Positions 2,956 to 32,103 of a stretch of 64,000 bases of DNA are shown piece after piece (position 1 is the stretch's first letter; the number at the start of each line of letters is the position of its first letter). The position numbers were made by a program, and so were the translations under genes. Source of the stretch: a virus. Where the stretch lies: the IMG/VR virus record IMGVR_UViG_3300035117_000094, positions 1 through 64,000 of that record. One strand, written 5' to 3'. The notes beneath the pieces are model-generated. The model was given only the letters and a program-made list of their open reading frames with translations, made no database searches and was not told the origin of the DNA.

Positions 2956-3375
2956 ATGAGTCACTACGCGTACTCTCCCGTAGGGTACTCATTCAACGCT
3001 GATGACTACTGCCTAGACTGCATTCCGCAGGTAGCCGCGATAGCCGGTAAGGGCAACGGTGGTAACGGCAGTAAGCGCGGGGAATGCAACTGCGCGGAGT
3101 GCCGACTTGACCGCATGGCAGCGGCGCGCGGCATCAATCGCATGGATGAGCGCACCTTTGACAGTGGCGACTTTCCCAAGCACATTCCGTACCACAATGA
3201 CATTCACTCGGAATGCGGCCCTGATCACTATCAGGATGAGGATCACCCGTCTGAGTGGTCATGCTACGCGCGCTGCGGGAAATGCCACAAGGTTATCGAT
3301 GGCACGAGCAACTCGTCCGGTCCTGACACGTGCCCGTCAATGCCGGAGCCTGCCGAGACTGAGGACGACGATTAG
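2956..3375 (+). CDS. Cysteine-rich hypothetical protein
   Basis: 139 residues with three cysteine clusters: YCLDC near residue 20, CNCAEC near 46 and CYARCGKCHK near 97, plus many histidines and a strongly acidic C-terminus. The CxC/CxxC spacing suggests one or two zinc sites. It begins two bases after the preceding stop and is followed by the first long hairpin leader element. Function unknown. Confidence 0.8.
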   Translation: MSHYAYSPVGYSFNADDYCLDCIPQVAAIAGKGNGGNGSKRGECNCAECRLDRMAAARGINRMDERTFDSGDFPKHIPYHNDIHSECGPDHYQDEDHPSEWSCYARCGKCHKVIDGTSNSSGPDTCPSMPEPAETEDDD

Positions 3376-3380
3376 CACGC

Positions 3381-3470
3381 CGGCACATGGTGAGGCTGGC
3401 CAGGCGCAAGGGCGGAGCCTGCCCTTTTTGACCTGGCCAGCAACGCCACGCGCTTACGCGCTGGCAGCAA
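3381..3470 (+). promoter_or_regulatory. Long hairpin leader element, copy 1
   Basis: A perfect 10-bp stem (GCTGGCCAGG at 3395-3404, CCTGGCCAGC at 3432-3441) encloses a second hairpin (AAGGGC/GCCCTT) followed by a T run. Downstream is a small CGCGC-TTA-CGCGC hairpin. The next start codon (3502) is 61 nt after the main stem. Copies 2 and 3 share the architecture but not the stem sequence. A transcription attenuator or mRNA-stabilising leader is the simplest reading. Confidence 0.65.
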
Positions 3471-3501: not shown

Positions 3502-4005
3502 ATGCCCCGTAGCGTAACGGCAGTGGCCGATATGGCTGGCATGTGGTGGGACGCCGGCGTAGTGGAGTACGTCGGGCGGTTTGACGCGTCCGAATTCGCG
3601 CGTCGCATGCTGACCAGCACAGCGCACGCCGCACTGTGGGCCGACTCCTCGCATGATGAGGACACGGACGGGAACGGGAAGTTCACGGAGGAGATAGACG
3701 ACTACGCTAACGGCTATGCGCCGGATTACGAGGACGCGCTTCCCGACGACGCGCGAGTCCAGCTGGAAACGGATGTTGACGACTTCATTCGCTCGGCATG
3801 GGTGTACCTCACGCTTGACAACATCACTCCGGAGCAAGCGGGACACGATTTCGAGTTGTCCCGTAACGGCCACGGTGCCGGATTCTGGGACCGTGGCTAC
3901 TCGCACGGGGACGAGCTGCATTCACTCGCCGAACCGTATGGCACGTTCGGCTTGGACGTGTCCGGCCACGGTGAGGACATGACCGTTTACGGATTCCACG
4001 GCTAG
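3502..4005 (+). CDS. Conserved phage hypothetical protein
   Basis: 167 residues, acidic. The segment GHDFELSRNGHGAGFWDRG (about residues 115-133) resembles a motif I recall from many actinophage proteins of unknown function, so the gene is very probably real and conserved. AAGGGAAGGGAT upstream provides the ribosome binding site. It is the first gene after hairpin leader copy 1. No enzyme signature was recognised. Confidence 0.85.
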   Translation: MPRSVTAVADMAGMWWDAGVVEYVGRFDASEFARRMLTSTAHAALWADSSHDEDTDGNGKFTEEIDDYANGYAPDYEDALPDDARVQLETDVDDFIRSAWVYLTLDNITPEQAGHDFELSRNGHGAGFWDRGYSHGDELHSLAEPYGTFGLDVSGHGEDMTVYGFHG

Positions 4006-4006
4006 C

Positions 4007-4114
4007 ATGAATGACCAGCAACGCCGGCAACTGCACTTCTGGGTAGCCGTGCTATCCGTAGCTTGCTTCGTGCTGGGATTCACCCTAGCCCTAGCGATAA
4101 TGACAATGCCGTGA
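4007..4114 (+). CDS. 35-residue single-span membrane peptide
   Basis: A short frame immediately after the preceding gene. The product starts with a charged segment (NDQQRRQ) followed by about 24 hydrophobic residues, a clear transmembrane helix. It depends on coupling to the upstream gene because no strong ribosome binding site is visible. Function unknown. Confidence 0.55.
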   Translation: MNDQQRRQLHFWVAVLSVACFVLGFTLALAIMTMP

Positions 4115-4156
4115 GCGCACCAATCTACGCATACCAGAGCTAAGGACAATAAGCGC

Positions 4157-4336
4157 ATGCGCAAGCTTCTACTCCCTGTCATCCTGGTCACGCTATTGTC
4201 GGCCGGCATCGCCGCAGGCATGGCCGCAGCGCCATTCCTCCACTTCAACGGGGGTGACTGGTCAGCGGGCACTAACACGGCGTACTGCGGCGTGTACTGG
4301 CCGCGCGCTGATTTCTACTGCCAGCGCGCTGGCTGA
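4157..4336 (+). CDS. Small exported or membrane-anchored protein
   Basis: 59 residues: MRKLLLP start, then about 20 hydrophobic residues with alanine/glycine steps (a signal peptide or anchor) and a short extracytoplasmic part with two cysteines (YCGVYW and FYCQRAG) that could form a disulfide. TAAGGA upstream is an acceptable ribosome binding site. The three-way-junction element follows its stop. Confidence 0.6.
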   Translation: MRKLLLPVILVTLLSAGIAAGMAAAPFLHFNGGDWSAGTNTAYCGVYWPRADFYCQRAG

Positions 4337-4343
4337 CACGACT

Positions 4344-4389
4344 GCCCCGTTAACGGCGTGATGCCGCCCGATCGGATCGGGCACGGGGC
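4344..4389 (+). ncRNA. Three-way-junction leader RNA, copy 1
   Basis: P1 is GCCCCGT/ACGGGGC, P2 is CGGC-GTGAT-GCCG and P3 is CCCGAT-CGG-ATCGGG. Both P1 and P3 differ from the common version (copies 2, 3 and 6) by paired changes that keep base pairing. The ATG of the next gene is 33 nt downstream. Confidence 0.8.
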
Positions 4390-4421
4390 GCGCAGGCATC
4401 ACCTATAAGAGAGGCTCGGCA

Positions 4422-4820
4422 ATGGCAGTCATGACGTACGGTACCGATACCGGTTACCCTGCCGTGATAGACGAGGACACCAAGGCGGTTACGTTCCGAT
4501 GCGTAGCGCATCAGGTTGACCCTAGCGCATGCGCGTTGTGCGCTGCCACGGAACGTGAGGGTTTCCTGGGCAAGCACACCACGCACTATCCCGCTTACGT
4601 CAACTCCCGTGGCACGCTGGTTACCACGTTCGGGGGATTCGAGCTTGGCGTCATCATCAGGTACCGTACGGGACGCCGGCGCTGCACTCCTACGGGCGGG
4701 TACTACCGGCTGGAGTACGTGACCGTCCGGGACGCCCATGGCGGTATCTGGCACGGTGCGCACAACAGCGACGGCGGTAACCTCGTGCTGCTGCGCAAGT
4801 CACGGAAGGCGGCGAGGTAA
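4422..4820 (+). CDS. Hypothetical protein with a CxxC pair
   Basis: 132 residues. A CALCAATE motif with an upstream FRCVAH gives C...C..C around residues 27-40, a possible zinc site; the rest is beta-rich (GGYYRLEYVTVRDAHGG). GAGAGG precedes the ATG. It is the first gene after copy 1 of the three-way-junction leader and overlaps the next gene by one base (TAATG). Function unknown. Confidence 0.8.
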   Translation: MAVMTYGTDTGYPAVIDEDTKAVTFRCVAHQVDPSACALCAATEREGFLGKHTTHYPAYVNSRGTLVTTFGGFELGVIIRYRTGRRRCTPTGGYYRLEYVTVRDAHGGIWHGAHNSDGGNLVLLRKSRKAAR

Positions 4821-5299
4821 TGCCCGCGACACTGACAGAGCATCCCGGCATCGTTGACCAGGGGACGCCTCACGAATTCTACAGTCCGTTCATCAAGTGG
4901 GAAGCCGAAAGCACGTCGGGCAGGTACGGGGAAGTGCAGCGACGCGGGCGGGCAGCGCAGATCAGCGCCGCAAAGCGCGCTTGGGTCAAGGCTCACCCGG
5001 GGCATTTCCTGTTCCTCTGTGATCGCAGCTACTCTGAGACCTGGGGTTTCCTTCACCAGTCAGCATTCCGTTACCGCGTCATCAGGTGCGACGCGATTAC
5101 CGGCGACGTGAGCAGCATGAATTGCTCGGATGACCTGCGCGTTGTCTGGTATGGCAAGGAGACTCCGGCGCTGGCATGCGGCTATCACGCGGGTAACTAC
5201 CCGTGCGCGGTCTACCGTGGCCATCACATCCGCGCGGCATACGAGGCTGAGCAGTACGCGAAGCTTAACGGCAAAATCTGGAAATGGCCCTACAAGTAG
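4820..5299 (+). CDS. Hypothetical protein
   Basis: 159 residues, mixed alpha/beta in appearance, with a basic patch (RRGRAAQISAAKRAW, about residues 41-55) and an aromatic C-terminus. It starts at the overlapping TAATG junction, so it is translationally coupled to the preceding gene. No motif was recognised. Confidence 0.8.
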   Translation: MPATLTEHPGIVDQGTPHEFYSPFIKWEAESTSGRYGEVQRRGRAAQISAAKRAWVKAHPGHFLFLCDRSYSETWGFLHQSAFRYRVIRCDAITGDVSSMNCSDDLRVVWYGKETPALACGYHAGNYPCAVYRGHHIRAAYEAEQYAKLNGKIWKWPYK

Positions 5300-5311
5300 A
5301 GAGGTAATCGC

Positions 5312-5569
5312 GTGACCGGATTCGTTGGCGGTTACAGGGACATGGCCGGCATCACGAGCCGCGCTAACAGCGCACTGTGCCGGATTGAGTACATCCACGG
5401 CATGGGGCACCTTCCCCCCGCCGTGAGGCTTGCCCTGATCGCCGAGGTGATCGCGCATGAGCCGATCCTCACTGACACGTGCCCCGCCGCGTATACGGTG
5501 CGCGAGCTAGCGTGGCCTGCGCAAGGCAGCGCGCCGCGCGTCCACTGGGACGGCAGGCTAGGGCGGTGA
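5312..5569 (+). CDS. Hypothetical protein
   Basis: 85 residues from a GTG preceded by GAGAGG. Contains a helix-like centre (PPAVRLALIAEVIAHEP). Its TGA overlaps the GTG of the next gene. Function unknown. Confidence 0.7.
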   Translation: MTGFVGGYRDMAGITSRANSALCRIEYIHGMGHLPPAVRLALIAEVIAHEPILTDTCPAAYTVRELAWPAQGSAPRVHWDGRLGR

Positions 5570-5847
5570 AGATAACCACGAACAACGTCCCGCGATTCAC
5601 CGTGGACAGTTGGGATCTAACGCCGGCGGAACGCGAGGAGTTCGATTACCTGGACTGGCCGGCGCTTGATGAGGGAACCGATAGCGCGACGTTCTTCCGC
5701 TACAAGGGCACCGTTTACGGCCTTGACCAGTTCATGCGCACGGGTCAAGAGGGATGGGAGGGGTACCTCGCATTCTCCTGGTCATGTGGCCTGCTTATCC
5801 GCCTGCCAGACGAGGACACGGTGGTTGTGGGGTTCTTCTCCGGCTAG
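5566..5847 (+). CDS. Hypothetical acidic protein
   Basis: 93 residues beginning VKITTNNVPRF. The GTG at 5566 is chosen over longer in-frame starts because it forms the GTGA overlap with the upstream stop. The sequence is acidic and tyrosine/tryptophan-rich, like a small soluble domain. The second hairpin leader begins at its stop codon. Confidence 0.75.
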   Translation: MKITTNNVPRFTVDSWDLTPAEREEFDYLDWPALDEGTDSATFFRYKGTVYGLDQFMRTGQEGWEGYLAFSWSCGLLIRLPDEDTVVVGFFSG

Positions 5848-5927
5848 CGCCGGCGCACGGTGCCCTTCCGCCTGGTCCTGGCCGGCGCTGGCCAAGACCA
5901 GGCGGAACGGGACGCCGCGTGCTTACG
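5841..5927 (+). promoter_or_regulatory. Long hairpin leader element, copy 2
   Basis: A perfect 12-bp stem (TTCCGCCTGGTC at 5866-5877, GACCAGGCGGAA at 5896-5907) has a TGGCC/GGCCA inner stem and partly paired GCACG/CGTGC flanks. These 87 bp are identical to copy 3 at 7333-7419. The next start (5963) is 56 nt after the main stem. Confidence 0.75.
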
Positions 5928-5962
5928 CACGGCAATCCGATACGAGACGAGAGGAAAAGCAC

Positions 5963-6271
5963 GTGCCCGTTAAGGTACCATCGGCCGACCAGAGGGTTAC
6001 CGCGCAAGCTGCGGCTGAGTACTTCTGGCTAGTGGCCACGCGCGATGACCGCACCGTGAGCACTTACGACACGGCTTACTACATCACGGCCAAGCGCGCG
6101 TTCATCGTCGCTGTAAGGCAGGCATACGGCATCGGGGCACGACGGGCGGAACGGGTTTACGAGGCGCTTTCCGCCTACGGGCCATACGACACGCTTTCGG
6201 GCACCACGGGACGCGGCGTTGAGTCCTACGTGCAATTCGTCGTTAAGTACCCGCGAGAGAAGGTTTACTGA
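5963..6271 (+). CDS. Hypothetical protein
   Basis: 102 residues from a GTG with GAGAGGAAAAG upstream; longer in-frame starts would run into the hairpin leader and are rejected. Helical and moderately basic (AKRAFIVAVRQAYGIGARRA). Overlaps the next gene by ATGA. Function unknown. Confidence 0.75.
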   Translation: MPVKVPSADQRVTAQAAAEYFWLVATRDDRTVSTYDTAYYITAKRAFIVAVRQAYGIGARRAERVYEALSAYGPYDTLSGTTGRGVESYVQFVVKYPREKVY

Positions 6272-6669
6272 TGAGCGACGAAATGCGAGTTAGGTTCCCC
6301 GCCGGCGCGCGGGTACTGTGGACGGGCAGCAGTCCCCGCCCGTTCTCACAGAACGTGAACGCGCCGGCGAAGGTGCAAGGATGGCAGCGCGATTCCCTCA
6401 CTCGCGGCCACCTGGTCTTCTACGTGTCGCTAGACGGCGGCCCGAGCCACGCCACGGCGGGCGATTCCCAGCTGCGCTACCCGTGCCCGCAATGCGGGGA
6501 GCCGCTGGAATGGCGCGGCCCGTTTGACGGGCGGGCGGCGTCCACGGGAGTCACGGGCGGGCATGAGGGGTTCGGCGAAACGCTGATGTGCGACGCCGGC
6601 CACTGGCACGCGTTCATTCAGCTTGGCGTGATACCTCCCGAGCGCATCCTTACCGTGATCGACCTCTAG
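6271..6669 (+). CDS. Zinc-ribbon-like hypothetical protein
   Basis: 132 residues. A CPQCGEPLEW knuckle near residue 71 and a later MCDAGHWH segment provide a plausible C-C-C-H zinc site separated by a glycine-rich loop. Starts at the ATGA overlap. The three-way-junction element copy 2 follows its stop. Function unknown. Confidence 0.8.
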   Translation: MSDEMRVRFPAGARVLWTGSSPRPFSQNVNAPAKVQGWQRDSLTRGHLVFYVSLDGGPSHATAGDSQLRYPCPQCGEPLEWRGPFDGRAASTGVTGGHEGFGETLMCDAGHWHAFIQLGVIPPERILTVIDL

Positions 6670-6675
6670 CACGGA

Positions 6676-6721
6676 GCCTCGTCAACGGCGTGATGCCGCC
6701 CTGTCGAACGGGGCACGAGGC
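6676..6721 (+). ncRNA. Three-way-junction leader RNA, copy 2
   Basis: P1 GCCTCGT/ACGAGGC, P2 CGGC-GTGAT-GCCG, P3 CCCTGT-CGA-ACGGGG (one T-G wobble). The next ATG (6758) is 37 nt downstream, preceded by the conserved GCGCAAGGACAC tail. Confidence 0.8.
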
Positions 6722-6757
6722 GCGCAAGGACACCAACCACGATCGAAGGGTAATTCA

Positions 6758-7339
6758 ATGGCTTGGAACGTTTACGCGATGCGCACGGCTAACCAGGGCA
6801 AGGGCGGTCACTGGTTTGATGCGGGCGCAATGCGCTTCTTCAATGGCCGCATCAGCGGGGAGGTTCACAGCGCGGGCAAGAATGCCGGCCAGTACTTCGT
6901 GTCATCCGAGCGGTACGACGACGACACGCCGCGCCTCTACTCAGTGCGCCGGTTCGATCCTGAGACGGCCGACGTGATGGATGCCCCGGGGCATCACTTC
7001 CAGGAGTACGCGTCATTGTCCGGCGCGCACGGCGCGGCCAAGCGCGCGGCGGCCAAGGAGGCGGCGACGGGATGGTGCAAGCGAGACGCCGACGCGCATT
7101 CCGGCCACCTGAGAGGGAGTGACAAGGCGTGCCCGAACTGCGGGACAATCGCGCTGGCCAAGACGGACGAGTGGATGATCACGGGCATCGCGTCCGATGG
7201 TAACCGGGCGCGGTTCGTCATCCACGACTCGCGCGAGTTCGCCGACGTGGCCGCGCACGCTGCGGAATCGGCTGCCCGCGTGTGGGGGGAAGGCTGCCTG
7301 ATAACTAACCTCACCATGCAAGAGGCAACACGCGGCTAG
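6758..7339 (+). CDS. Conserved phage hypothetical protein
   Basis: 193 residues. The N-terminus (HWFDAGAMRFFNGRISGEV, about residues 18-36) resembles a motif I recall as common in actinophage proteins of unknown function. A CPNCG knuckle lies near residue 126 and the C-terminal half looks alpha/beta. CGAAGG upstream is the ribosome binding site. It is flanked by a leader element on each side. Confidence 0.85.
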   Translation: MAWNVYAMRTANQGKGGHWFDAGAMRFFNGRISGEVHSAGKNAGQYFVSSERYDDDTPRLYSVRRFDPETADVMDAPGHHFQEYASLSGAHGAAKRAAAKEAATGWCKRDADAHSGHLRGSDKACPNCGTIALAKTDEWMITGIASDGNRARFVIHDSREFADVAAHAAESAARVWGEGCLITNLTMQEATRG

Positions 7340-7419
7340 CGCCGGCGCACGGTGCCCTTCCGCCTGGTCCTGGCCGGCGCTGGCCAAGACCAGGCGGAAC
7401 GGGACGCCGCGTGCTTACG
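7333..7419 (+). promoter_or_regulatory. Long hairpin leader element, copy 3
   Basis: Identical over 87 bp to copy 2 (5841-5927), with the 12-bp stem at 7358-7369 and 7388-7399. The next start codon (7461) is 62 nt after the stem. Identity between copies whose flanking genes are unrelated implies recent duplication or strong constraint. Confidence 0.75.
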
Positions 7420-7460
7420 TGAATAGCACGAAACCTGCCCACATCACGAGAGGTACGACG

Positions 7461-7634
7461 ATGGACCTTGACACGCGCGCCACTGCTCCCGGTTTCTACG
7501 TGGAATCGCTGGAGGGTAACGAGTGGCTGACATTCAAGGCCGGCACGCGGAAGCGCGCCAAGCGCGCGGCCAGCCGGCGACTCCGCCACACGACGCGGGC
7601 CAAGCTCCGCCGCGCGGATTACAGCGACTTCTAG
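7461..7634 (+). CDS. Small basic hypothetical protein
   Basis: 57 residues. The ATG at 7461 follows GAGAGG and is preferred to an in-frame GTG at 7419 that lies inside the leader. The C-terminal half is very basic (KRAKRAASRRLRHTTRAKLRR), suggesting nucleic-acid binding. Function unknown. Confidence 0.7.
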   Translation: MDLDTRATAPGFYVESLEGNEWLTFKAGTRKRAKRAASRRLRHTTRAKLRRADYSDF

Positions 7635-7642
7635 CACGAGGA

Positions 7643-7688
7643 GCCTCGTTAACGGCGTGATGCCGCCCTGTCGAACGGGGCACGAGGC
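7643..7688 (+). ncRNA. Three-way-junction leader RNA, copy 3
   Basis: Same as copy 2 except for TTAA in place of TCAA between P1 and P2. The next ATG (7727) is 39 nt downstream. Confidence 0.8.
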
Positions 7689-7726
7689 GCGCAAGGCACC
7701 CCACCACATGAGAGGCATAACCAGTC

Positions 7727-8242
7727 ATGGGACACAAGCCACTGCCCGCGCACCGAGACGACCTGTTTTACCGTCACACGGTGCTGCCCGCCGCGCGCCG
7801 CATCGCGGCCAGCATCATCGACGACGCGCGGGCCAGCACCACGCCCGTCGCGTGGGTCACGGGCAATTCCTACATGCCGCCGGCGCGGTCGTTCACCGAA
7901 TTCGAGATGGTCTGGCAGCACCGCCTTAACGAGAGCACGCCGGAACGCCCGTACGCCGGCGGCCAGATGTCAGAGGCGATGTGGGAGGAGATCGAGCGAA
8001 TCCTCACTGAGGCGGACGTGTACACGGCGTGCCCCGACTACGATAACTCCATCTACGCGGTTGACTCCCGCCGCTGGGAGTACATCGGAGAAGACAACCC
8101 CGCGTTTGACGAGTTCGACATGAACGGGGAGTACCTGCCCGTGGTGCGCGCCGGCGTGACGTGCCCCGAGTGCGGTAAGTCGCACAAGGCAGGATCGGCA
8201 ACGCTGGCCAAGTGCGCCACGGCGCGCGGGCTGCCGGCGTGA
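7727..8242 (+). CDS. Hypothetical protein with C-terminal zinc knuckle
   Basis: 171 residues. The N-terminal segment LFYRHTVLPAARRIA is shared with LFYRRTVAPAMRAIA in the gene at 12028, so the two contain a common domain. A CPECGKSHK knuckle and a later cysteine lie near the C-terminus. GAGAGG precedes the ATG. Its TGA overlaps the next GTG. Function unknown. Confidence 0.8.
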   Translation: MGHKPLPAHRDDLFYRHTVLPAARRIAASIIDDARASTTPVAWVTGNSYMPPARSFTEFEMVWQHRLNESTPERPYAGGQMSEAMWEEIERILTEADVYTACPDYDNSIYAVDSRRWEYIGEDNPAFDEFDMNGEYLPVVRAGVTCPECGKSHKAGSATLAKCATARGLPA

Positions 8243-8400
8243 CCGGGGAGCCTGCCCCGCTGACCGATACGCGGGAGGCGCTGGCCGCCATGTGCGAGGA
8301 CGAAACTTACGCGCCATGGCTAGCACGGCAGGAGGCGAACAGCCGGCCCGTGGGAATGGTGCGGTTCGCCGATGATCCTGCCAAGGATTACCAGGTATGA
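8239..8400 (+). CDS. Small hypothetical protein
   Basis: 53 residues from a GTG that overlaps the preceding stop (GTGA). Acidic and helical in the centre (TREALAAMCEDETYAPWLAR). No motif. Copy 4 of the three-way-junction element follows. Confidence 0.6.
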   Translation: MTGEPAPLTDTREALAAMCEDETYAPWLARQEANSRPVGMVRFADDPAKDYQV

Positions 8401-8406
8401 GAAGGA

Positions 8407-8452
8407 GCCTCGTCAACGGCGTGATGCCGCCCTGCCGAACGGGGCACGAGGC
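8407..8452 (+). ncRNA. Three-way-junction leader RNA, copy 4
   Basis: P1 GCCTCGT/ACGAGGC and P2 as in the others; P3 reads CCCTGC-CGA-ACGGGG with one unpaired position next to the loop. The next ATG (8489) is 37 nt downstream. Confidence 0.78.
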
Positions 8453-8488
8453 GCGCAAGGACACAGTCACGCACGAAGGGAAAGCACG

Positions 8489-8974
8489 ATGCGCAAGCCG
8501 CTGAAGGACACGAACAAGACCTACGCCACGCTTAACGCACTGCTCGGCAGCCTGCCAGAATTCCGTCCCGCCCCTGTTCGCTCGGATGTTGCCGGCGTTA
8601 TCCTCGCCTGCTGGGAGGCGGGCCTGATCACCACGGACGAGCTTGCGTGGGAAGTGCTGCGCATAGTGGAGCACGACGTTGCCGATGGCTTCGTGCCGTG
8701 GGACGTGTCGTGCTTCGGGCAGCTCCACGATTTCGTGGACGCCAACATGTACACGGACGAGCTGATCGGGCTTGCGGAGCCGGACGACGAGGACGACGAA
8801 CGGCACATCGCCATTCACAACGCCGTGACCAGCCGCGTTAACGAGCTGCTTACGGGAAGCAAGGAGACGCCGGCGTACTACGCGGACGGCTTCCCGTGGC
8901 AGGAGATGCAGGAGCGCGGCAAGTCACGCGATACCGACATGGCCGTGTACCTGGTCAGCATGGGCAGGCGATAG
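8489..8974 (+). CDS. Hypothetical protein
   Basis: 161 residues, acidic, predicted mainly helical, with an acidic run (EPDDEDDERH, about residues 98-107). CGAAGGGAAAG gives a strong ribosome binding site; the longer upstream frame overlaps the RNA element and is not used. Function unknown. Confidence 0.8.
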   Translation: MRKPLKDTNKTYATLNALLGSLPEFRPAPVRSDVAGVILACWEAGLITTDELAWEVLRIVEHDVADGFVPWDVSCFGQLHDFVDANMYTDELIGLAEPDDEDDERHIAIHNAVTSRVNELLTGSKETPAYYADGFPWQEMQERGKSRDTDMAVYLVSMGRR

Positions 8975-8977
8975 GAG

Positions 8978-9583
8978 ATGACGATCATGACAGCGCCGGT
9001 TACGTACACGTTCGACGTGGTAACCGTCACCACGATCCGCGTTACGGTCAGCGGCGGCGAGGAGGCAGCGCGGGCAGCCATCGCCGGCCTGGAATCCCTC
9101 GACATCGACGCCGTGATCACGGGCACGGAAGGCGGCGCGGAAGACGCGAGCTACAGCCCGACGTGCATAAGCCCGCGCGGGAAGGCAGCGCTCGTGCATG
9201 CTACGGGAGCACACGGCGAGGACATGCCCGTGGAAGAGGACGAGGGACTCGCCGAGCCGCTGTTCAGCACGGGCGAGGCACGGGAACTGATCACGGACGG
9301 CTGCGACGACCACGGCGGCGAGGAGGCAGCGCGAGACGCGCCGGATACGCCCCTCACCGTGTACGTTGTCACAGAGGGCGCTGATATCGAGTGCTGCGAG
9401 CACCACGGCGCGTTCAGCACGCCGGAGAAGGCAACAGGGTACGTGAACGCCAGCGCTAAAGGCGGCGCGCACTGGTACGCTAACCCGTTCCACGCGCGGT
9501 CTAGGCACGGCGGATCGGAATGGACGATCGTCCCGATGATCCTTGACGAGCTAACACCGAACACCCACCAGGAGGCATCGTGA
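8978..9583 (+). CDS. Hypothetical acidic protein
   Basis: 201 residues. The first 50 residues form a beta-alpha unit (YTFDVVTVTTIRVTVSGG, then AARAAIAGL), and the C-terminal third holds ECCEHHGAFSTPEKATGYV, a possible metal-binding cluster. Overlaps the next GTG. Function unknown. Confidence 0.8.
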   Translation: MTIMTAPVTYTFDVVTVTTIRVTVSGGEEAARAAIAGLESLDIDAVITGTEGGAEDASYSPTCISPRGKAALVHATGAHGEDMPVEEDEGLAEPLFSTGEARELITDGCDDHGGEEAARDAPDTPLTVYVVTEGADIECCEHHGAFSTPEKATGYVNASAKGGAHWYANPFHARSRHGGSEWTIVPMILDELTPNTHQEAS

Positions 9584-9957
9584 CCGAAGAGGCACAGTTC
9601 ACCGAAGAGGAGATCGCGGCGGCCATACCGCAACTGCCCGACTGGCAGCGCTACGATAACGCGGCGGTCCTGTACACGCGCGGACCGGTAAGCGCGGTCG
9701 TGCTGGCCGCGTTCGCCGAGCTGGCCAGCGCGATCAGCAACAGCACCGATGGCGGCGCGAGCGTTGCCACGGAGTACGGGCAGCTAGCCGCGCGTGTGGC
9801 CAAGCCGGCGGCGGACGTGCGAGAGTGGGCGCTACGGCACCTTCGCCAGCAGGCGGAGAAGGCAACGGCCGACAAGCACATTCTTGCGTGTGAGAACGCG
9901 GAGAGGGCAGCAGCCGTTGCCGATGCCGAGCGCTTGCTCAGGCCGGCCGCCACCTAG
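9580..9957 (+). CDS. Hypothetical helical protein
   Basis: 125 residues from GTG, rich in alanine and charged residues, apparently all-helical with a coiled-coil-like C-terminus (HLRQQAEKATADKH and onward). Coupled to the preceding gene by overlap. Function unknown. Confidence 0.75.
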   Translation: MTEEAQFTEEEIAAAIPQLPDWQRYDNAAVLYTRGPVSAVVLAAFAELASAISNSTDGGASVATEYGQLAARVAKPAADVREWALRHLRQQAEKATADKHILACENAERAAAVADAERLLRPAAT

Positions 9958-9965
9958 CACGAGGA

Positions 9966-10011
9966 GCCTCGTCAACGGCGTGATGCCGCCCCGTCGAACG
10001 GGGCACGAGGC
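9966..10011 (+). ncRNA. Three-way-junction leader RNA, copy 5
   Basis: P3 is a fully Watson-Crick CCCCGT-CGA-ACGGGG, replacing the T-G wobble of copies 2, 3 and 6. The next ATG (10046) is 35 nt downstream. Confidence 0.8.
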
Positions 10012-10045
10012 GCGCAAGGACATAACCGCGAGCGAAGGGCACGAC

Positions 10046-10489
10046 ATGACCAATCCCGCAGACGACATCGCCAACGCGGACATCAGGCGAGCGCGCACGG
10101 CGCTGGCCGTCATGTCCGCGCCGGCCGGCCAGCTCGGCACGGACGCGCACGACACGCTGCTCCGTAACGCTGCGGAGATCCGCAGGTTCCTGGACCGGCT
10201 GGAAGGCCAGCGGCTAGCCGAGCGGCGACGGCAAGGAGACTTCACCCCCGAACTGGTCACGCTGGAGGCGCAAGCCGGCGAGCTGCGCGCCCTGTCCTCC
10301 GAGCTGGGTAACGTCGCATTCGAGGTGACCGCGCAGCGCTCGGGCATGTCGCGCAACGGCCACGACGCGAGCGACGCGATGCAAGTGCAGGAGTACGGGC
10401 GCACGGTCGAACTGCTCATCGGCAAGCTGACCGTGGTGCGCGATACGCTCAGCGCGCTCGGGTCAGCGTTCGGCGAGCCTGCCGCATGA
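10046..10489 (+). CDS. Hypothetical helical protein
   Basis: 147 residues; the ATG follows CGAAGGGCACGAC and lies downstream of the RNA leader, so longer in-frame starts are rejected. Long amphipathic helices throughout (NAAEIRRFLDRLEGQRLAER) suggest a coiled-coil or helical bundle. ATGA overlap with the next gene. Function unknown. Confidence 0.8.
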   Translation: MTNPADDIANADIRRARTALAVMSAPAGQLGTDAHDTLLRNAAEIRRFLDRLEGQRLAERRRQGDFTPELVTLEAQAGELRALSSELGNVAFEVTAQRSGMSRNGHDASDAMQVQEYGRTVELLIGKLTVVRDTLSALGSAFGEPAA

Positions 10490-10764
10490 GGCTCGGCAAC
10501 GGGCGGCCGGCGGGACCGCGCATGCTGGCCGCCTGGAGGTACGTGCAAGAGCACCCAGGCTGCCCGATCCTGCCCGTTGCGGAGGCGGTCGGCCCGCACG
10601 GCTCACGGAAGTTCGGCTACCGCAGCGTTCACAGGGCGATCAGCGCCGGCCTGATCATGGCGGCGAGAGACTCGCGCGGGCGGTACAGCCTCACGGCCGA
10701 AGAGGTGACCGTGCACCCGAGCGTCACCCGCACCCCGTTCAGCAACTACGTTCAGAGACGATAG
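10486..10764 (+). CDS. Putative winged-helix protein
   Basis: 92 residues. The order helix-helix-recognition helix-wing is suggested by ILPVAEAVGPHG, RKFGYRSVHRAISAGLI and ARDSRGRYSLT, similar to small winged-helix regulators in which a fixed side chain is followed by a glycine-rich beta wing. Starts at an ATGA overlap. DNA binding is inferred. Confidence 0.65.
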   Translation: MRLGNGRPAGPRMLAAWRYVQEHPGCPILPVAEAVGPHGSRKFGYRSVHRAISAGLIMAARDSRGRYSLTAEEVTVHPSVTRTPFSNYVQRR

Positions 10765-10776
10765 GGGAGGCACCCC

Positions 10777-10980
10777 GTGAAGGTCTCGCGAATCAAGCCG
10801 TACGGCGACGAGTACGACCGTCACGGGATAGTCATCGCTCGTCAGTACCTGTGCTGGATGGCCGATCAGACGGTACTTACCGTGCACGTGCCGGCCACCT
10901 ATCGCGGGCGCGAGAAGAGTCGCGCGGCACGAGCGCTGGCCGTGGCCAAGTGGAAAGAACAGCAGAGGAGAAACCCGTGA
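10777..10980 (+). CDS. Small basic hypothetical protein
   Basis: 67 residues from GTG, preceded by GGGGAGG. The C-terminal third is strongly basic (YRGREKSRAARALAVAKWKE). Overlaps the next GTG. Function unknown. Confidence 0.65.
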   Translation: MKVSRIKPYGDEYDRHGIVIARQYLCWMADQTVLTVHVPATYRGREKSRAARALAVAKWKEQQRRNP

Positions 10981-11468
10981 AACTGCATACCGTCCTTTAC
11001 ACCCAGGACATCCGCAACGCGCTCCAGCGCGCTAAGGCCGCTGGCCGCGTGACCGCTGACGTGGAGCTTGTCCAGCTCAAGCCCGAGGGATCGCGTACGC
11101 ACCCGTACGGGTACCTCGTGCAGCTAGGCACCTTCGACCAGGACAGCCTGCCGGCGGGCACGACCGACCAGCACGGGCGGCGCATGAACGTCCGCAGGTA
11201 CAAGAACAGCGGCGACTCCGGCGCGGCGTCGGAGTACTACGGGCGCGACGGCGCGGTATGGGCGGCCACGTACCACGAGTGGGGATGGTTTATCGCGGAG
11301 CTGTTCGCCGCCGACCCGACCGCCTCGACCAGTGCCTCGTACGGGCGCTACAAGAGCGCTGAGGACTTCCGCGAGCAGACGAACGGCGCGTACGAGCTGC
11401 CCGTTCCCGCTGAGCCGCGCCACTGGCACCCCAACATGCACGGGGACTACACGGGCGGCATCCGCTAG
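10977..11468 (+). CDS. Hypothetical protein
   Basis: 163 residues starting VKLHTVLYTQDIRNALQ at the GTG overlapping the upstream stop, preceded by GAGGAG. Mixed alpha/beta with several tyrosine-rich strands. Copy 6 of the three-way-junction element follows its stop. No motif recognised. Confidence 0.75.
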   Translation: MKLHTVLYTQDIRNALQRAKAAGRVTADVELVQLKPEGSRTHPYGYLVQLGTFDQDSLPAGTTDQHGRRMNVRRYKNSGDSGAASEYYGRDGAVWAATYHEWGWFIAELFAADPTASTSASYGRYKSAEDFREQTNGAYELPVPAEPRHWHPNMHGDYTGGIR

Positions 11469-11476
11469 CACACGGA

Positions 11477-11522
11477 GCCTCGTCAACGGCGTGATGCCGC
11501 CCTGTCGAACGGGGCACGAGGC
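11477..11522 (+). ncRNA. Three-way-junction leader RNA, copy 6
   Basis: Identical to copy 2 in all three helices. The next ATG (11558) is 36 nt downstream. Confidence 0.8.
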
Positions 11523-11557
11523 GCGCAAGGACACGACCACGAGCGAAGGACACGCGC

Positions 11558-11788
11558 ATGAAGTACGTCATCAGCGAGAAGACCGCTGACCTGATGAAAG
11601 ACCTGTTCGAGCAGCTAATCAACGAGGCCGATCACCTGGTTAGCCATCCGAGCGCAGAGGGCCAGTTCTTCGACACCACGTCGGGGGGCGCGTGCTCGCG
11701 CGAGGATATCGCGGGCATCCGCGACGACATGAGGGCCGCGCTCGGCGAACTGGACCGTCAGCGCGGTGCCGTGATCATCAACACCTAG
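11558..11788 (+). CDS. Small hypothetical protein
   Basis: 76 residues, helical, acidic (ADLMKDLFEQLINEADHLV). CGAAGG upstream. First gene after RNA copy 6. Function unknown. Confidence 0.75.
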   Translation: MKYVISEKTADLMKDLFEQLINEADHLVSHPSAEGQFFDTTSGGACSREDIAGIRDDMRAALGELDRQRGAVIINT

Positions 11789-11806
11789 GGAAAGGCACCT
11801 GCTACC

Positions 11807-12031
11807 GTGACAACCATGTACGAGCCTAAGGTCAACCAGCCGCGCCGTGTCACGCACGAGCTAGCCGGCGAGGAAACAGACATCGTGCCCGAGCTAACGG
11901 GCTTCTTCGAGCGGCCGGCATACGCCACGCTGGCCGACATCACGACGGCGCTCGTGGAGGAGACCGACCCTCACGAGCTGCACCGCCTTCAGGGCCTGCT
12001 GGACAGCGTGCGGGCAGGGGAGATCGGATGA
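11807..12031 (+). CDS. Small acidic hypothetical protein
   Basis: 74 residues from GTG. GGGAAAGG lies upstream at a somewhat long distance; the in-frame ATG four codons later is an alternative start. Ends in an ATGA overlap with the next gene. No motif. Confidence 0.65.
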   Translation: MTTMYEPKVNQPRRVTHELAGEETDIVPELTGFFERPAYATLADITTALVEETDPHELHRLQGLLDSVRAGEIG

Positions 12032-12423
12032 CCGGCAGCGGCGTAACGAGGCAGCCTGAAAACGAGCCTGAGGACGCCGAAGCCGGCAAGGAGCTGCTTG
12101 ACCTGATCGTGAAGATGGTGCCCCCCGTGCTGTGGGAGAAGGTGCCCGCTAACAAGGACACGTCCGTCCTGATCGCCCGTGAGGGCGCGTGGGAGGCACC
12201 CGAGCCGGCGGCGGCCATCCGTGCCGTCATGCGCGCGGGCAGCGACGCGAACTTCGCCGGCATGGGAGACGACGAGGTGAGGGCACTCCGCCTCGTGGCC
12301 TTCGACTTCCTCCGGGTAGCCGATGAGGAGCTGTTCTACCGCAGGACAGTCGCGCCCGCCATGCGGGCCATAGCCCAGGCGAGCACGCTCATCCTGCGTG
12401 ACGCCGGGGAAGGAGGCAGCTGA
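12028..12423 (+). CDS. Hypothetical protein with shared LFYRRT domain
   Basis: 131 residues. The C-terminal segment ELFYRRTVAPAMRAIAQAS matches the N-terminal part of the gene at 7727, placing a common small domain in different contexts. Overlaps the start of the methyltransferase-like gene. Function unknown. Confidence 0.75.
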   Translation: MTGSGVTRQPENEPEDAEAGKELLDLIVKMVPPVLWEKVPANKDTSVLIAREGAWEAPEPAAAIRAVMRAGSDANFAGMGDDEVRALRLVAFDFLRVADEELFYRRTVAPAMRAIAQASTLILRDAGEGGS

Positions 12424-13310
12424 TGCAGAGGCTCCGGGTACTGCTGGCCTGCGAGTGCAGCGGGCGAGTGCGAGACGAGTTCGCCAAGCGCGGGTGGGAG
12501 GCCGTCTCGGCGGACATCCTGCCGAGCGAGACGCCCGTGGACCGCAGCATGGTCTCAACGCTGATCCACGGGCAGGGAAGCGCGGGGCAAGGACCGGAAG
12601 AGTTCCACTCACCTGTTGAGACAGGGACAGGCGGCTGGCAGCGCTGGGACGCGGGCGGCTCAACGGCGCACTACCGGGGCGACGTGCGAGACCTTTTCAG
12701 CTGGGATCACCCGGTGAACAGGTCTCGTATCCAGCCGGGCAAGCCCGTTAACGAGCAGCTTCCCCCGTGGGATCTCGTCATCGCGTTCCCGCCGTGCACC
12801 CGGCTGTCGTACGCGGGCAACCGCTGGCGGAAGGAGTGGCAGGCCAACGGCGAGGAGGACGCGGGCGCGGCGTTCTTCATGGACATGATCAGCGCGCCGT
12901 CGCCGCTAGTCGCGGTCGAGAACCCGCGCGGCGTGATGTTCCAGCGCTACCGCAAGCCTGATCAGGCGATCCAGCCCTGGTGGTTCGGTGATCCGTTCCG
13001 GAAGACCACGTGCCTGTGGCTGAAGGGGCTGCCCCCGCTGGTGCCGGAGCTTACTGAGCCGGAAGTTCTGGCGACCGTCAGCTCCGGCGACCTGGCCGGC
13101 TACCGGCTGCACCGTGCCGCGACGGGCGGGGGGTCGCACCGCACCGACGCGGGCGCGGAGCACCCTGCCCACGACTTCGGCGGCCGGAAGCACTACGAGG
13201 ACAGCGAGGGGCGCGTGAACCGGGCGAAGGTCCGGTCCCGCACGTTCCCCGGCGTCGCCCGTGCCATGGCCGCCCAGTGGGGCGCGTTCGCGGAGAAGTA
13301 CCACAGCTAG
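12423..13310 (+). CDS. Cytosine-methyltransferase-like protein
   Basis: 295 residues. An N-terminal nucleotide-binding-like start (RLRVLLACECSGRVRDEFAK) and a DLVIAFPPCTRLS segment near residue 118 resemble motifs I and IV of C5 cytosine methyltransferases; VENPRG near 165 resembles motif VI (ENV). The family is common in phages and usually labelled DNA methyltransferase, but the usual target-recognition region and later motifs are short or unclear, so modification of host-restricted sites is an inference. It overlaps the preceding stop (TGATG). Confidence 0.7.
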   Translation: MQRLRVLLACECSGRVRDEFAKRGWEAVSADILPSETPVDRSMVSTLIHGQGSAGQGPEEFHSPVETGTGGWQRWDAGGSTAHYRGDVRDLFSWDHPVNRSRIQPGKPVNEQLPPWDLVIAFPPCTRLSYAGNRWRKEWQANGEEDAGAAFFMDMISAPSPLVAVENPRGVMFQRYRKPDQAIQPWWFGDPFRKTTCLWLKGLPPLVPELTEPEVLATVSSGDLAGYRLHRAATGGGSHRTDAGAEHPAHDFGGRKHYEDSEGRVNRAKVRSRTFPGVARAMAAQWGAFAEKYHS

Positions 13311-13317
13311 GCAACCC

Positions 13318-13362
13318 GCCCCCGTAACCGCGTGACGCCGGCGATCGGATCGCCACGGGGGC
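13318..13362 (+). ncRNA. Three-way-junction leader RNA, copy 7 (diverged)
   Basis: The most diverged copy, yet still paired: P1 GCCCCCGT/ACGGGGGC, P2 reduced to GCG-TGA-CGC, P3 GGCGAT-CGG-ATCGCC. The paired substitutions in P1 and P3 are the best evidence that the structure, not the sequence, is conserved. The next ATG (13401) is 39 nt downstream. Confidence 0.78.
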
Positions 13363-13400
13363 ACGCACGCCACACCCAGACCGCTAGGAAAGGCACTCTC

Positions 13401-13814
13401 ATGTCAAAGGGCATCTTCGACCTGTCCGCCGAGGACATCATGTACTCGCGTGACGTGGACGCGCGCATCGCCGGGCTTGAGCAGGAGATCACTGCGCTGC
13501 TAACCCCGGACCCGGGCGACGGCAGCCCCGAGATAGACGAGGCCGCCGAGCTGGACGCCGAGCTTACCGAGCTGAAGGAGTTCCGCGACACCGTGACTCG
13601 CAGCCCGGCCGGGGACGGCTGGGACAGGGATCGCGGCATGTCCTTCATCAACGTCCGCTACTGGGACCAGTACGCGAGTGAGCAGGCCGGCGAGATCTAC
13701 GGCGAGGCTACGAGCACTGAGTTCTGGGACGGCGGGAAGTGGTCGGCCCGCCTTCAGCGGGACTTCGCCGAGGTCAGGCTGAACGGCGACGTGTTCCTGT
13801 ACGACGGCAGGTAG
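13401..13814 (+). CDS. Hypothetical protein
   Basis: 137 residues; the ATG follows AGGAAAGG and lies after RNA copy 7. The first half is an acidic coiled-coil-like helix (about residues 19-62), the second half an aromatic alpha/beta part (FINVRYWDQYASEQAGEIYG). Its TAG immediately precedes an ECF-like promoter motif. Function unknown. Confidence 0.8.
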   Translation: MSKGIFDLSAEDIMYSRDVDARIAGLEQEITALLTPDPGDGSPEIDEAAELDAELTELKEFRDTVTRSPAGDGWDRDRGMSFINVRYWDQYASEQAGEIYGEATSTEFWDGGKWSARLQRDFAEVRLNGDVFLYDGR

Positions 13815-13817
13815 CCG

Positions 13818-13846
13818 GGAATACTCGCGACCGTTCACCGGTTACA
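13818..13846 (+). promoter_or_regulatory. ECF-like promoter, GGAATA-N17-GTTACA
   Basis: Begins four bases after the upstream stop codon in the shared context TAGCCGGGAATA. Expected to start transcription about 20 nt before the ATPase gene at 13874. Confidence 0.7.
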
Positions 13847-19181: not shown

Positions 19182-20006
19182 ATGGCACGGAACATCTGGA
19201 ACGGATCGATCTCTGCTCGCATGCTCTCCATCCCCGTCACGCTGGCCAGCGCCGTCAGCGAGGGCGGCCTCGAACTGCACCAGTACGCCCCGGACGGCGG
19301 CCGGGTCAAGTACCGCCGCGTCTCCGAGGCGTCCGGGCAGGAGGTTCCCTACGGCGAGATCCGCATGGGCTACGCGGCGCCGGACGGCACCGTGGCGTAC
19401 CTCACCGACGACGACTTCGCGGAGGCGTACGGCGAGGTCAGCCGGAACGCGCAGATCCTGATGTTCACGGACCCGGCGCGCGTTCCGGACATGGCCCGGT
19501 GCCGGCCGTTCATCATCGCCCCCGCGAAGGAGAAGGGCCGCAAGGCCAAGGAGTGGGACCGGGGCAGCGAGCGCGCGTACGCCCTGCTGGCCGCCGCCCT
19601 GAAGTCCACGGGCAAGGTCGCGATCGTCGTGTTCGGGCTGCGGCAGCGCAAGCGCCTCGCCGTGATCTCCGAGCAGGACGGCTACCTGGTCCTGGAGCAG
19701 CTTGAGTGGCACGAGGACCTGGCGGCCCCCGACTTCGCCGCCCCGTCCGTCGCCCTGAGCAACGCCGAGCTGACGGCGGCCGGGGACCTGGTCGCGGACA
19801 TGAGCGCGGACTTCTGCCACTCCGACTACGCGGACGACTCGCGCGCCCGGGTCGAGGCCATGATCGAGGCCCGGCTCGCGCCCGCCCCGGCCGTAGCGGA
19901 GGCTGCCGCCGTCGCAGCGGACGAGGGCGTGACGGCGTTCGGGGACCTGCTGGCCTCGATCAACGCCTCGCTCGCGTCAGGCCGGACCGCGAAGGCCAGC
20001 GCGTGA
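19182..20006 (+). CDS. ku: Ku-like DNA end-binding protein
   Basis: 274 residues, the usual size of bacterial Ku. The opening ARNIWNGSISARMLSIPV, then ELHQYAPDGGRVKYRRV (about residues 31-47) and an EVPYGEIRMGYAAPDGTV segment are hallmark Ku features. Ku rings bind double-strand DNA ends and recruit LigD for end joining. Phage Ku copies are known in mycobacteriophages Corndog and Omega, where they are proposed to help genome circularisation with host LigD. No LigD is seen in this window. It starts an operon behind an ECF-like promoter. Confidence 0.9.
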   Translation: MARNIWNGSISARMLSIPVTLASAVSEGGLELHQYAPDGGRVKYRRVSEASGQEVPYGEIRMGYAAPDGTVAYLTDDDFAEAYGEVSRNAQILMFTDPARVPDMARCRPFIIAPAKEKGRKAKEWDRGSERAYALLAAALKSTGKVAIVVFGLRQRKRLAVISEQDGYLVLEQLEWHEDLAAPDFAAPSVALSNAELTAAGDLVADMSADFCHSDYADDSRARVEAMIEARLAPAPAVAEAAAVAADEGVTAFGDLLASINASLASGRTAKASA

Positions 20007-30548: not shown

Positions 30549-31528
30549 CAGAACCCCAGGCCCGAGCCGAGGTAGCGCCACTTAGAGGCGGCAGCGTAGT
30601 ACCTGAAGCCGACGATGTCGGCCGCGTTAGCCGCCGTGCTGAGCGTTGGCGCCCCGGCCGCCCCGAAGGCGTACGCGGCGTTCCAGGTGACGGCGCAAGG
30701 GCCACCGGACGCGGGCTGAGTGAGCGCAATCGTGATCGACTGCCCGTCAACGGGACTCGACGGCGCCCCCATGGCGCGGGTACCGCCCACGCCGCTGGTG
30801 AGCAGGAGCCGGAAGTCATTGCCGGCCGCCGCGTTAACCGCCACGGTAGCCGCGTCGGTGAGGGCCACTACCGCCGGGGACAGCGGGCCTTGCATGGCCC
30901 CGCCCGTGATCAGCACGTACCGGGCGTCCAGGCCGGACAGGGGCTGGTCGTCGGCCGTCACGTACCAGGCCGTGAGCGTCGTGTTGTAGCAGAGGACGAC
31001 GCCCTGGTCCTTGATCCGCAGCGTGAGCGGGCCGGCCTCGCCGGAGTTGAACGTCGCCCCGTTGCCCGCGATCGTGACCACGTTAGACCCGGCCACGGCG
31101 ACCATCTTCACGCCGCACAGGGTGTTGTTGGCGGGGGCGGGGGGCAGCGTGATGGTGACGGAGGACCCGGACGCGTCCACCGGCACGTACTCGCCGTTAG
31201 CGGGCGAGTAGGCGGACGACTTGACCGCGATGGGCAGCAGCGCCGTGAAGGCCGCCGCCGCGAACGCCGTGGTGGCGAGCTGCGTCGTGCTGGTGCCGGG
31301 CGTCGCAGTCGGGGCGGTCGGAACGCCCGTGAAGGCAGGGGAGTTCAGGGGGGCGCCGCCCCCGCCGCCCGGGTTCCAGTAGGCGAGGGAGGCCCACGCC
31401 GTGGCGCCGTCCCCCATCTTGCCCTTGCCCGTGTCGGTCTCCACGCCGATCTCGCCCTGGTGGAGCACGGGGTTGACGCTGGTCCAGTTAGCAGCGGTGT
31501 CCCGCCTGATCTGAATGGTAACGCTCAT
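30548..31528 (-). CDS. Tail-fibre protein with Mtd-like N-terminus
   Basis: 326 residues. QIRRDTAANWTSVNPVLHQG, then EIGVETDTGKGKMGDG and AWASLAYW is the common N-terminal module of phage tail fibres and hyaluronidase/major-tropism-determinant-like proteins. A proline/threonine linker follows, then beta-rich repeats. Role in host attachment is inferred from this and its neighbours. Confidence 0.85.
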   Translation of the reverse strand: MSVTIQIRRDTAANWTSVNPVLHQGEIGVETDTGKGKMGDGATAWASLAYWNPGGGGGAPLNSPAFTGVPTAPTATPGTSTTQLATTAFAAAAFTALLPIAVKSSAYSPANGEYVPVDASGSSVTITLPPAPANNTLCGVKMVAVAGSNVVTIAGNGATFNSGEAGPLTLRIKDQGVVLCYNTTLTAWYVTADDQPLSGLDARYVLITGGAMQGPLSPAVVALTDAATVAVNAAAGNDFRLLLTSGVGGTRAMGAPSSPVDGQSITIALTQPASGGPCAVTWNAAYAFGAAGAPTLSTAANAADIVGFRYYAAASKWRYLGSGLGF

Positions 31529-32103
31529 CAGGCGCCGCCTCCGTCGATGTTGCCTGCCGGGAACTGCCCGGTGGACGCTGAGCCGCCGTCGAGGTCAGCA
31601 GCCGGGAACTGCCCGCCCGCTGCCGTGCCGCCGTCCTGGCCGAACAGGCTGCCGCCGGACTGCGGCTGCCAGGAGCTTGCCTCCCCGGCGCCCGTCGCCA
31701 CCGGGACGTACCCGGGCACGGCAGTACCGGAGGGGAGCGGGAGGTACTGCTGGCCGGGCTGGGCTGCGGGCACCTCCGCGAGGGCGCTGAGGTACTGCAC
31801 CGCGCCGTCAGCGAAGCGCAGGTAGAAGCTGAACCCGCGCGGGCTGCCGGGAACGCCGGGGAACGAGACAGCGTACGTCCACGCGTTCGGCTGCGGGCCT
31901 ACGGAGTCGGTGGACACGAGCCGGGCCTGCGGCGGCGACGGCCTGCCCCCGAAGGCGGCCACCACGGGCGCGGTCATGATCAGCAGCTGGTCAGCGGGGT
32001 CGGGCAGGCTGCCGGACGGCGTGATCACGGCCTGACCCTGGGCCAGGGGGATCCCTCGCGCGTCGGCAGAATCCAGCACCAGCGTCACGTACTGCGCGGT
32101 CAC
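31528..32103 (-). CDS. Structural protein, likely fibre-associated
   Basis: 191 residues from GTG 32103 with GGGAGGATG upstream. The first 120 residues are a compact beta domain (QYVTLVLDSADARGIPLAQG); the last 50 are a glycine-rich repeat with two near-identical GGQFPAADLDGG-like units. Position and composition suggest a tail-fibre adaptor. Confidence 0.7.
   Translation of the reverse strand: MTAQYVTLVLDSADARGIPLAQGQAVITPSGSLPDPADQLLIMTAPVVAAFGGRPSPPQARLVSTDSVGPQPNAWTYAVSFPGVPGSPRGFSFYLRFADGAVQYLSALAEVPAAQPGQQYLPLPSGTAVPGYVPVATGAGEASSWQPQSGGSLFGQDGGTAAGGQFPAADLDGGSASTGQFPAGNIDGGGA

Follow-up and report, generated by a model that had tools for sequence, protein, structure and literature searches.

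In phage T4, an early promoter and a stem-loop are joined in a single cassette (PeSL, early promoter and stem-loop). In the cluster K mycobacteriophages, the start-associated sequence (SAS) is a 13-bp ribosome-binding-site motif and the extended start-associated sequence (ESAS) is a 17-bp inverted repeat (PMC3203893). Bacterial RNase P RNA cleaves model hairpins composed of an acceptor stem, T-stem and T-loop at the canonical site in vitro (PMC11143913). The window analysed here, the first 64,000 bases of a 103,588-bp IMG/VR record of an actinobacterial phage (IMGVR_UViG_3300035117_000094), carries seven copies of an intergenic RNA element of about 46 bases that can be set beside these systems. 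The preferred reading, held at a probability of about 0.55, is that the element is an armless tRNA-like RNA acting as mRNA punctuation, which would be cut by RNase P and probably by RNase Z.

An initial annotation of this DNA had described seven elements, each a three-way junction of helices P1, P2 and P3, and all seven are recovered on the plus strand at those coordinates with that fold. Three covariance models were applied: R1, built from six phage copies with the copy at 13318 left out; R2, built from trimmed real tRNAs; and R3, built from Streptomyces copies only, without phage copies and without tRNAs. The copies are as follows.

4344..4389, plus strand: copy 1 (type II); R3 51.9 bits, E 1.5e-8
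6676..6721, plus strand: copy 2 (type I), P1 GCCTCGT/ACGAGGC; R3 37.4 bits, E 1.7e-5
7643..7688, plus strand: copy 3 (type I); R3 36.0 bits, E 3.3e-5
8407..8452, plus strand: copy 4 (type I, apical P3 pair broken); R1 81.2 bits, unlisted by R3 with default filters
9966..10011, plus strand: copy 5 (type I); R3 39.7 bits, E 5.5e-6
11477..11522, plus strand: copy 6 (type I); R3 37.4 bits, E 1.7e-5
13318..13362, plus strand: copy 7 (type III); R1 E 3.8e-6 without having been in the R1 training set; R3 32.3 bits, E 2e-4

The five type I copies are nearly identical; the diverged ones are 4344 (type II) and 13318 (type III). Each of the seven alone folds as the P1-P2-P3 junction (z -1.9 to -3.2), with folding energies of -25 to -29 kcal/mol. 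Copy 4344 has P1 GCCCCGT/ACGGGGC, U8 and A9, P2 GGC-GTGAT-GCC and P3 GCCCG-ATCGGAT-CGGGC. Copy 13318 has A73, a P1 (GCCCCCGT/ACGGGGGC) one base pair longer and a P3 (GGCGAT/ATCGCC) one base pair shorter than those of the other copies. The whole 103,588-bp record yielded no eighth copy.

Judged from the alignments, all three helices covary and the covariation is real, as the initial annotation had maintained; the signal is also strong in a wider alignment, the test which that annotation had itself proposed. The 6676-type copies differ from 4344 at eight positions, six of which lie in stems and make up three full compensatory pairs (4-43, 27-35 and 28-34), while the other two fall in a linker and a loop. 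Random placement of eight substitutions keeps all pairs with three double changes in 3 of 200,000 trials, and the U-G pairs 27-35 and 15-19 are possible on the sense strand only. Among 45 Streptomyces copies, 99.6% of cells are paired, and sliding the partners abolishes the signal; two-sided changes number 35 against 8.8 in shuffled data (0/500), counts that are uncorrected for relatedness. A mixed set of 20 phage and Streptomyces copies, likewise uncorrected, has two-sided changes at 8 of 15 pairs (three in P1, one in P2 and four in P3). Besides pairing, P1 and the P2 loop are conserved in sequence across the 45 copies. P3 had been described as always carrying a CGA or CGG loop, a pattern that does not extend to the wider family: there P3 has 5 bp and a 7-nt loop rather than 7 bp and a CGR triloop, the triloop-closing pair 33-37 fails in 10 of 45 copies, and 8407 breaks the apical pair in the phage itself.

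The models agree with the alignments. R1 recovers the left-out copy 13318 at 38 bits (E 3.8e-6), the next match in the window scoring 15 bits. In the R3 search the top six places go to phage elements (E 1.5e-8 to 2e-4), the match after them having E 0.084; the seventh, 8407, is not listed with default filters but is almost identical to the other type I copies. No Rfam family matches the element at gathering or relaxed thresholds, a comparison that the initial annotation had also proposed, and that annotation had not recognised it as a described family.

Gene calling puts every element between two small plus-strand genes, and the gaps concerned are 85-92 nt long. In every copy the element begins 6-8 nt after a stop codon, and its P1 ends 32-38 nt before a start codon. 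The layout is the same at the other six copies as downstream of the first:

4390..4421, plus strand: conserved tail (GCGCA...) and Shine-Dalgarno-like GAGAGG before the start codon at 4422

The spacing to the preceding stop codon is as tight as that to the following start. The initial annotation had called it a leader RNA with the start always 33-39 nt downstream; it does always precede a start codon, at the slightly shorter distance given above, but the label covers one side of the element only. The leader interpretation is partly supported, and a regulatory role stays putative.

The resemblance to tRNA is close and is to one species in particular. Some copies equal tRNA-Leu(CAA) exactly over the first 12 nt (GCCCCGGTATCC) and match 23 of the last 27, and the 75-nt tRNA-Leu(CAA) and the element have a 7-bp acceptor stem in common. 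When R3 was run over 395 actinobacterial genomes, 75-77-nt stretches in about 30 of them scored 41-45 bits, against an expectation of about 0.04 hits by chance, and 16 of the 16 matches checked are tRNA-Leu(CAA). The P3 loop obeys the T-loop rules (U55 C56 R57 A/G58 N59 U60), P3 adjoins P1 through its 3' strand in the way that a T-arm adjoins the acceptor, and 36 of 46 copies carry A at base 73. This acceptor/T-stem/T-loop architecture is present in the Streptomyces copies and in 4344, and in 13318 it is shifted by one base pair; type I copies mostly have U-G at 53-61. In place of the D and anticodon arms stands the small GUGA-loop hairpin P2, and an anticodon arm and a full cloverleaf are absent from all copies. 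Because the model of other trimmed tRNAs (R2) is not significant on the phage copies, the likeness, as far as sequence comparison can tell, is to tRNA-Leu(CAA) specifically.

The element probably descended from a 75-nt actinobacterial tRNA with anticodon CAA, the direction of descent being inferred. A tRNA of that length and anticodon, without a long variable arm, occurs in many actinobacterial genomes (L518-L533) and is a possible parent. A normal tRNA-Leu belongs to class II, and the 75-nt CAA tRNA is unlike it. Separately, a tRNA whose anticodon arm is enlarged, for the most part unannotated, occurs in phiC31-type Streptomyces phages (L418, 1433-1519; phiC31 AJ006589, ~31420-31529); that of Sebastisaurus (Rfam 54 bits) has a stop codon 6 nt upstream and a start ~36 nt downstream. 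A blastn match of 13318 to a vestigial phiC31-type tRNA (E 0.8) pointed to tRNA likeness and is not significant; R1 misses that tRNA.

The element is not a leader repeat private to this phage: the family extends to Streptomyces plasmids and chromosomes and to a mycobacteriophage, a spread that the initial annotation missed along with the tRNA likeness. Over the 395 genomes R1 gave one match (37.7 bits), in a Streptomyces-type genome and with a P3 identical to that of 4344; at a per-genome E of 6.9e-4, or ~0.27 over all genomes, this is a lead only. Blastn with the 80-nt stretch from that genome, run over 396 genomes of the family to which it belongs, hits 53 of them, often twice per genome and mostly with boundaries that coincide with a ~51-nt element. 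None of the 46 chromosomal copies extracted lies within a same-strand open reading frame (ORF), and for the 21 with an ORF end close by the median distance from stop to element is 13 nt. Around them lie, among others, GntR/UTRA regulators, DUF6284, DUF6251 and one weak match to FtsK/SpoIIIE, which suggests that the neighbourhoods are integrated conjugative elements. Copies also occur on 18 Streptomyces plasmids, where no annotated gene overlaps the match (one record is without annotation); plasmids with the element include pFP11 and pCQ3, and in the four inspected they lie near tra or FtsK genes or amid runs of hypothetical genes. Spacing on the plasmids recalls that in the phage, with 8 nt from stop to element and 28 nt from element to start in NBC_01005 unnamed3, and 8 and 39 nt in pCQ3.

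Among phages, a pattern scan of IMG/VR with the Streptomyces consensus found seven contigs, at least four of them with an intact fold. Mycobacterium phage Dublin carries a diverged copy with a P1 of its own (GCCCGGU/ACCGGGC); it begins 8 nt beyond a stop codon, and a start follows 38 nt after it. The Dublin copy (L538, 701-748; also in MarysWell) lies between genes 83 and 82 and adjoins an ArdA-like antirestriction gene. Blastn of INPHARED with a 7.6-kb region of the phage gave no match, nor did one exact pattern from the phage copies in IMG/VR; model scans of the stretches matched by other exact patterns stay at chance level, and single-match 15-mer hits there were judged chance. Relatives reached through the helicase (L132, L133) and the portal protein (L391-L417) have no element copy, hits in L132, L393 and L247 being attributed to chance. 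No published description of the family was found in open-licence texts, the only literature searchable. The element looks like an undescribed RNA family shared by actinobacterial phages, Streptomyces plasmids and chromosomes.

Punctuation is preferred for two reasons: acceptor/T-arm mimics suffice for RNase P in vitro, and the element stands between stop and start. The 7-bp acceptor-like P1 runs on into P3, a hairpin with a 5-bp T-stem and a 7-nt T-loop-like loop, and the structural prerequisites of an RNase P substrate are present. We infer the cleavage, the enzymes involved and the effect on expression. RNase P would cut the long polycistronic mRNA at the 5' side of P1, and an RNase Z-type tRNA 3'-processing enzyme would probably cut after base 73. 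The upstream mRNA would be freed with a short 3' tail soon after its stop codon, and the downstream mRNA would gain a new 5' end ~35 nt before its start codon. The fuller proposal, that anticodon-less mimics from a tRNA-Leu(CAA)-like gene were copied between genes and hijack host RNase P and RNase Z to split the operon mRNAs of actinobacterial phages, plasmids and chromosomal mobile elements, is given an even chance.

Several observations weigh against punctuation by a tRNA mimic. Neither ARAGORN nor Rfam calls any copy a tRNA. R2 gives E 0.59 for 4344 and 2.4 for 13318 in exact register, neither of them significant, and it scores type I copies on the minus, and wrong, strand only. Position 8 is C in most type I copies, and their T-loop is mostly weak. 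The 3' end of the element is ACU or GCG rather than CCA, although the tRNA-Leu(CAA) genes compared also mostly lack an encoded CCA. Many chromosomal copies have an extra strong hairpin and are separated from the next start by ~100 nt, an arrangement that fits simple punctuation less well.

The main rival, judged unlikely, is an intrinsic terminator or attenuator lacking a U tract, in which GC-rich stacked hairpins after the stop codon would end transcription wholly or in part. The phiC31 early region reportedly has inverted-repeat terminators without poly-U. Actinobacterial terminators frequently have no U tract (PMC8355165), and a position 6-8 nt after the stop, together with the folding energies, would suit one. 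Against this, no element is followed by a U-run, so none qualifies as a U-tract intrinsic terminator, and the terminator-like hairpins elsewhere in the genome are long single stems. Promoters that could restart transcription are not above chance: two sigma70-type sites were found against 2.7 expected, and GGAAT-N18-GTT, which we take to be the consensus of SigR/SigH-type extracytoplasmic function (ECF) sigma factors, is absent from the element-bearing region in a scan of the record. With neither promoter type at the elements, the T4 PeSL cassette was also rejected as a match. A role for the stems alone would moreover leave the near-invariant P1, the GUGA loop of P2, the T-loop pattern and A73 unexplained. 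That sequence conservation of P1 and the P2 loop, beyond pairing, would be accommodated by a leader whose tRNA-like fold is recognised by a mobile-element or host protein controlling downstream translation or stability, and the constant position upstream of a start codon and the recurrence in plasmid transfer regions with GntR regulators fit as well. This is nevertheless rather improbable: no anti-Shine-Dalgarno or alternative pairing was seen, and the downstream genes are mutually unrelated.

The close likeness to a single tRNA species and the location in phages and plasmids could also point to a decoy, a released 47-nt mimic that would occupy tRNA-handling enzymes such as host tRNA nucleases, the CCA-adding enzyme or a synthetase and so protect the mobile element. 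Lacking an anticodon arm, however, it cannot mimic the target of an anticodon nuclease, and its fixed stop-to-start placement suggests a role in cis, so that a decoy is a distinctly poor candidate. Least probable is a DNA-level element, a recombination or transposition site that would fold as single-stranded DNA and spread as an intergenic cassette. The type I copies are indeed ~90-nt near-identical cassettes in unrelated contexts, and the family is multi-copy in plasmids, but sense-strand-only U-G pairs, fixed orientation, fixed spacing to stop and start and the T-loop-like pattern all argue against it.

The record encodes terminase, portal, capsid, PolA, primase and Ku-like proteins, and its proteins are only 23-44% identical to those of the phages and contigs checked. 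The features around the elements are the following.

3532..13814, plus strand: operon-like run of small genes interspersed with the seven elements (gene calls, promoter scan)
13818, 17517, 19101, 37528, 41185, 45024, 48407, 52015, 54665, 57940, 60861 and 88342 (record), plus strand: forward GGAAT-N18-GTT sites (motif scan)
55454-56044, plus strand: ECF-like sigma factor gene (PF04542, 40 bits)

The 12 forward sites in the record compare with 0.35 expected and with none at a spacing of 17 or 19; a distant relative (G002) has 14 sites, both strands counted. The element-bearing run ends 3 nt before the first forward site at 13818. That the run stops where these motifs begin, together with the phage-encoded ECF-like sigma factor, suggests that the elements punctuate an early operon transcribed from the left end and that units driven by the sigma factor come after it. 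Within the run, a long hairpin of 87 nt that folds strongly occurs in two identical copies (5841-5927 and 7333-7419), each starting at the stop codon of the preceding gene, and a similar hairpin may exist near 3374-3460; a weak Rfam match of the pair to mraW falls under the gathering score. Elsewhere in the window are two odd tRNA genes (60579-60651 and 60899-60998), one with a four-base anticodon (agga) and one of 100 nt with an inserted stretch; the gene for the Ku-like DNA end-binding protein (19182-20006, PHROG 4873); and tandem 45-bp repeats (CCCTTACCACATAGGCAGCATG...) at the left end (137-500). In the relative G002, both ends carry tandem repeats of 12 bp (AGAGCCATAGGC).

If punctuation is correct, bacterial mobile elements would be using a strategy familiar mainly from mitochondria, with dedicated tRNA mimics that do not decode. 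The element would then mark operon boundaries by sequence in Streptomyces plasmids and actinophages, supply a compact RNA part (46-52 nt) with which synthetic operons could be split, and allow the minimal portion of a tRNA that RNase P needs to be tested in vivo. Mechanism aside, a covarying RNA family that is absent from Rfam is present in 53 of 396 Streptomyces-type genomes (by blastn) and on 18 plasmids.

Compared with known systems, the element is nearest to tRNA (RF00005) in the form of the 75-nt tRNA-Leu(CAA), with which it shares the acceptor GCCCCGG/CCGGGGC, YA at 8-9, a 5-bp T-stem, a TCGAAT-type loop and A73. It differs in lacking the anticodon arm, in having a GUGA hairpin for the D-arm, in its length of 46-49 nt and in its position between stop and start codons in operons. 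Mitochondrial tRNA punctuation offers the proposed parallel, tRNA-like folds between genes that are cut by RNase P and RNase Z; the mitochondrial folds are functional tRNAs, whereas the elements here cannot decode and their cleavage is putative. The poly-U-less terminators that phiC31 is said to have are likewise structured intergenic elements in the early region of a Streptomyces phage, the likeness being one of description only. The SAS and ESAS of cluster K mycobacteriophages are also repeated, start-associated sites at non-structural actinophage genes (PMC3203893). The initial annotation had rightly set the structure apart from them, as neither sequence nor a three-way junction is held in common, and the 13-bp SAS (GGGATAGGAGCCC, 3-7 bp before the start) is absent from the seven leaders as read. 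Finally, the non-tRNA substrates of RNase P, such as 4.5S RNA, phage C4 antisense RNA and polycistronic mRNAs, mimic the acceptor and T-arm in the same way (PMC11143913); those are mostly single cases, whereas the element is a dispersed, multi-copy family with a P2 of its own.

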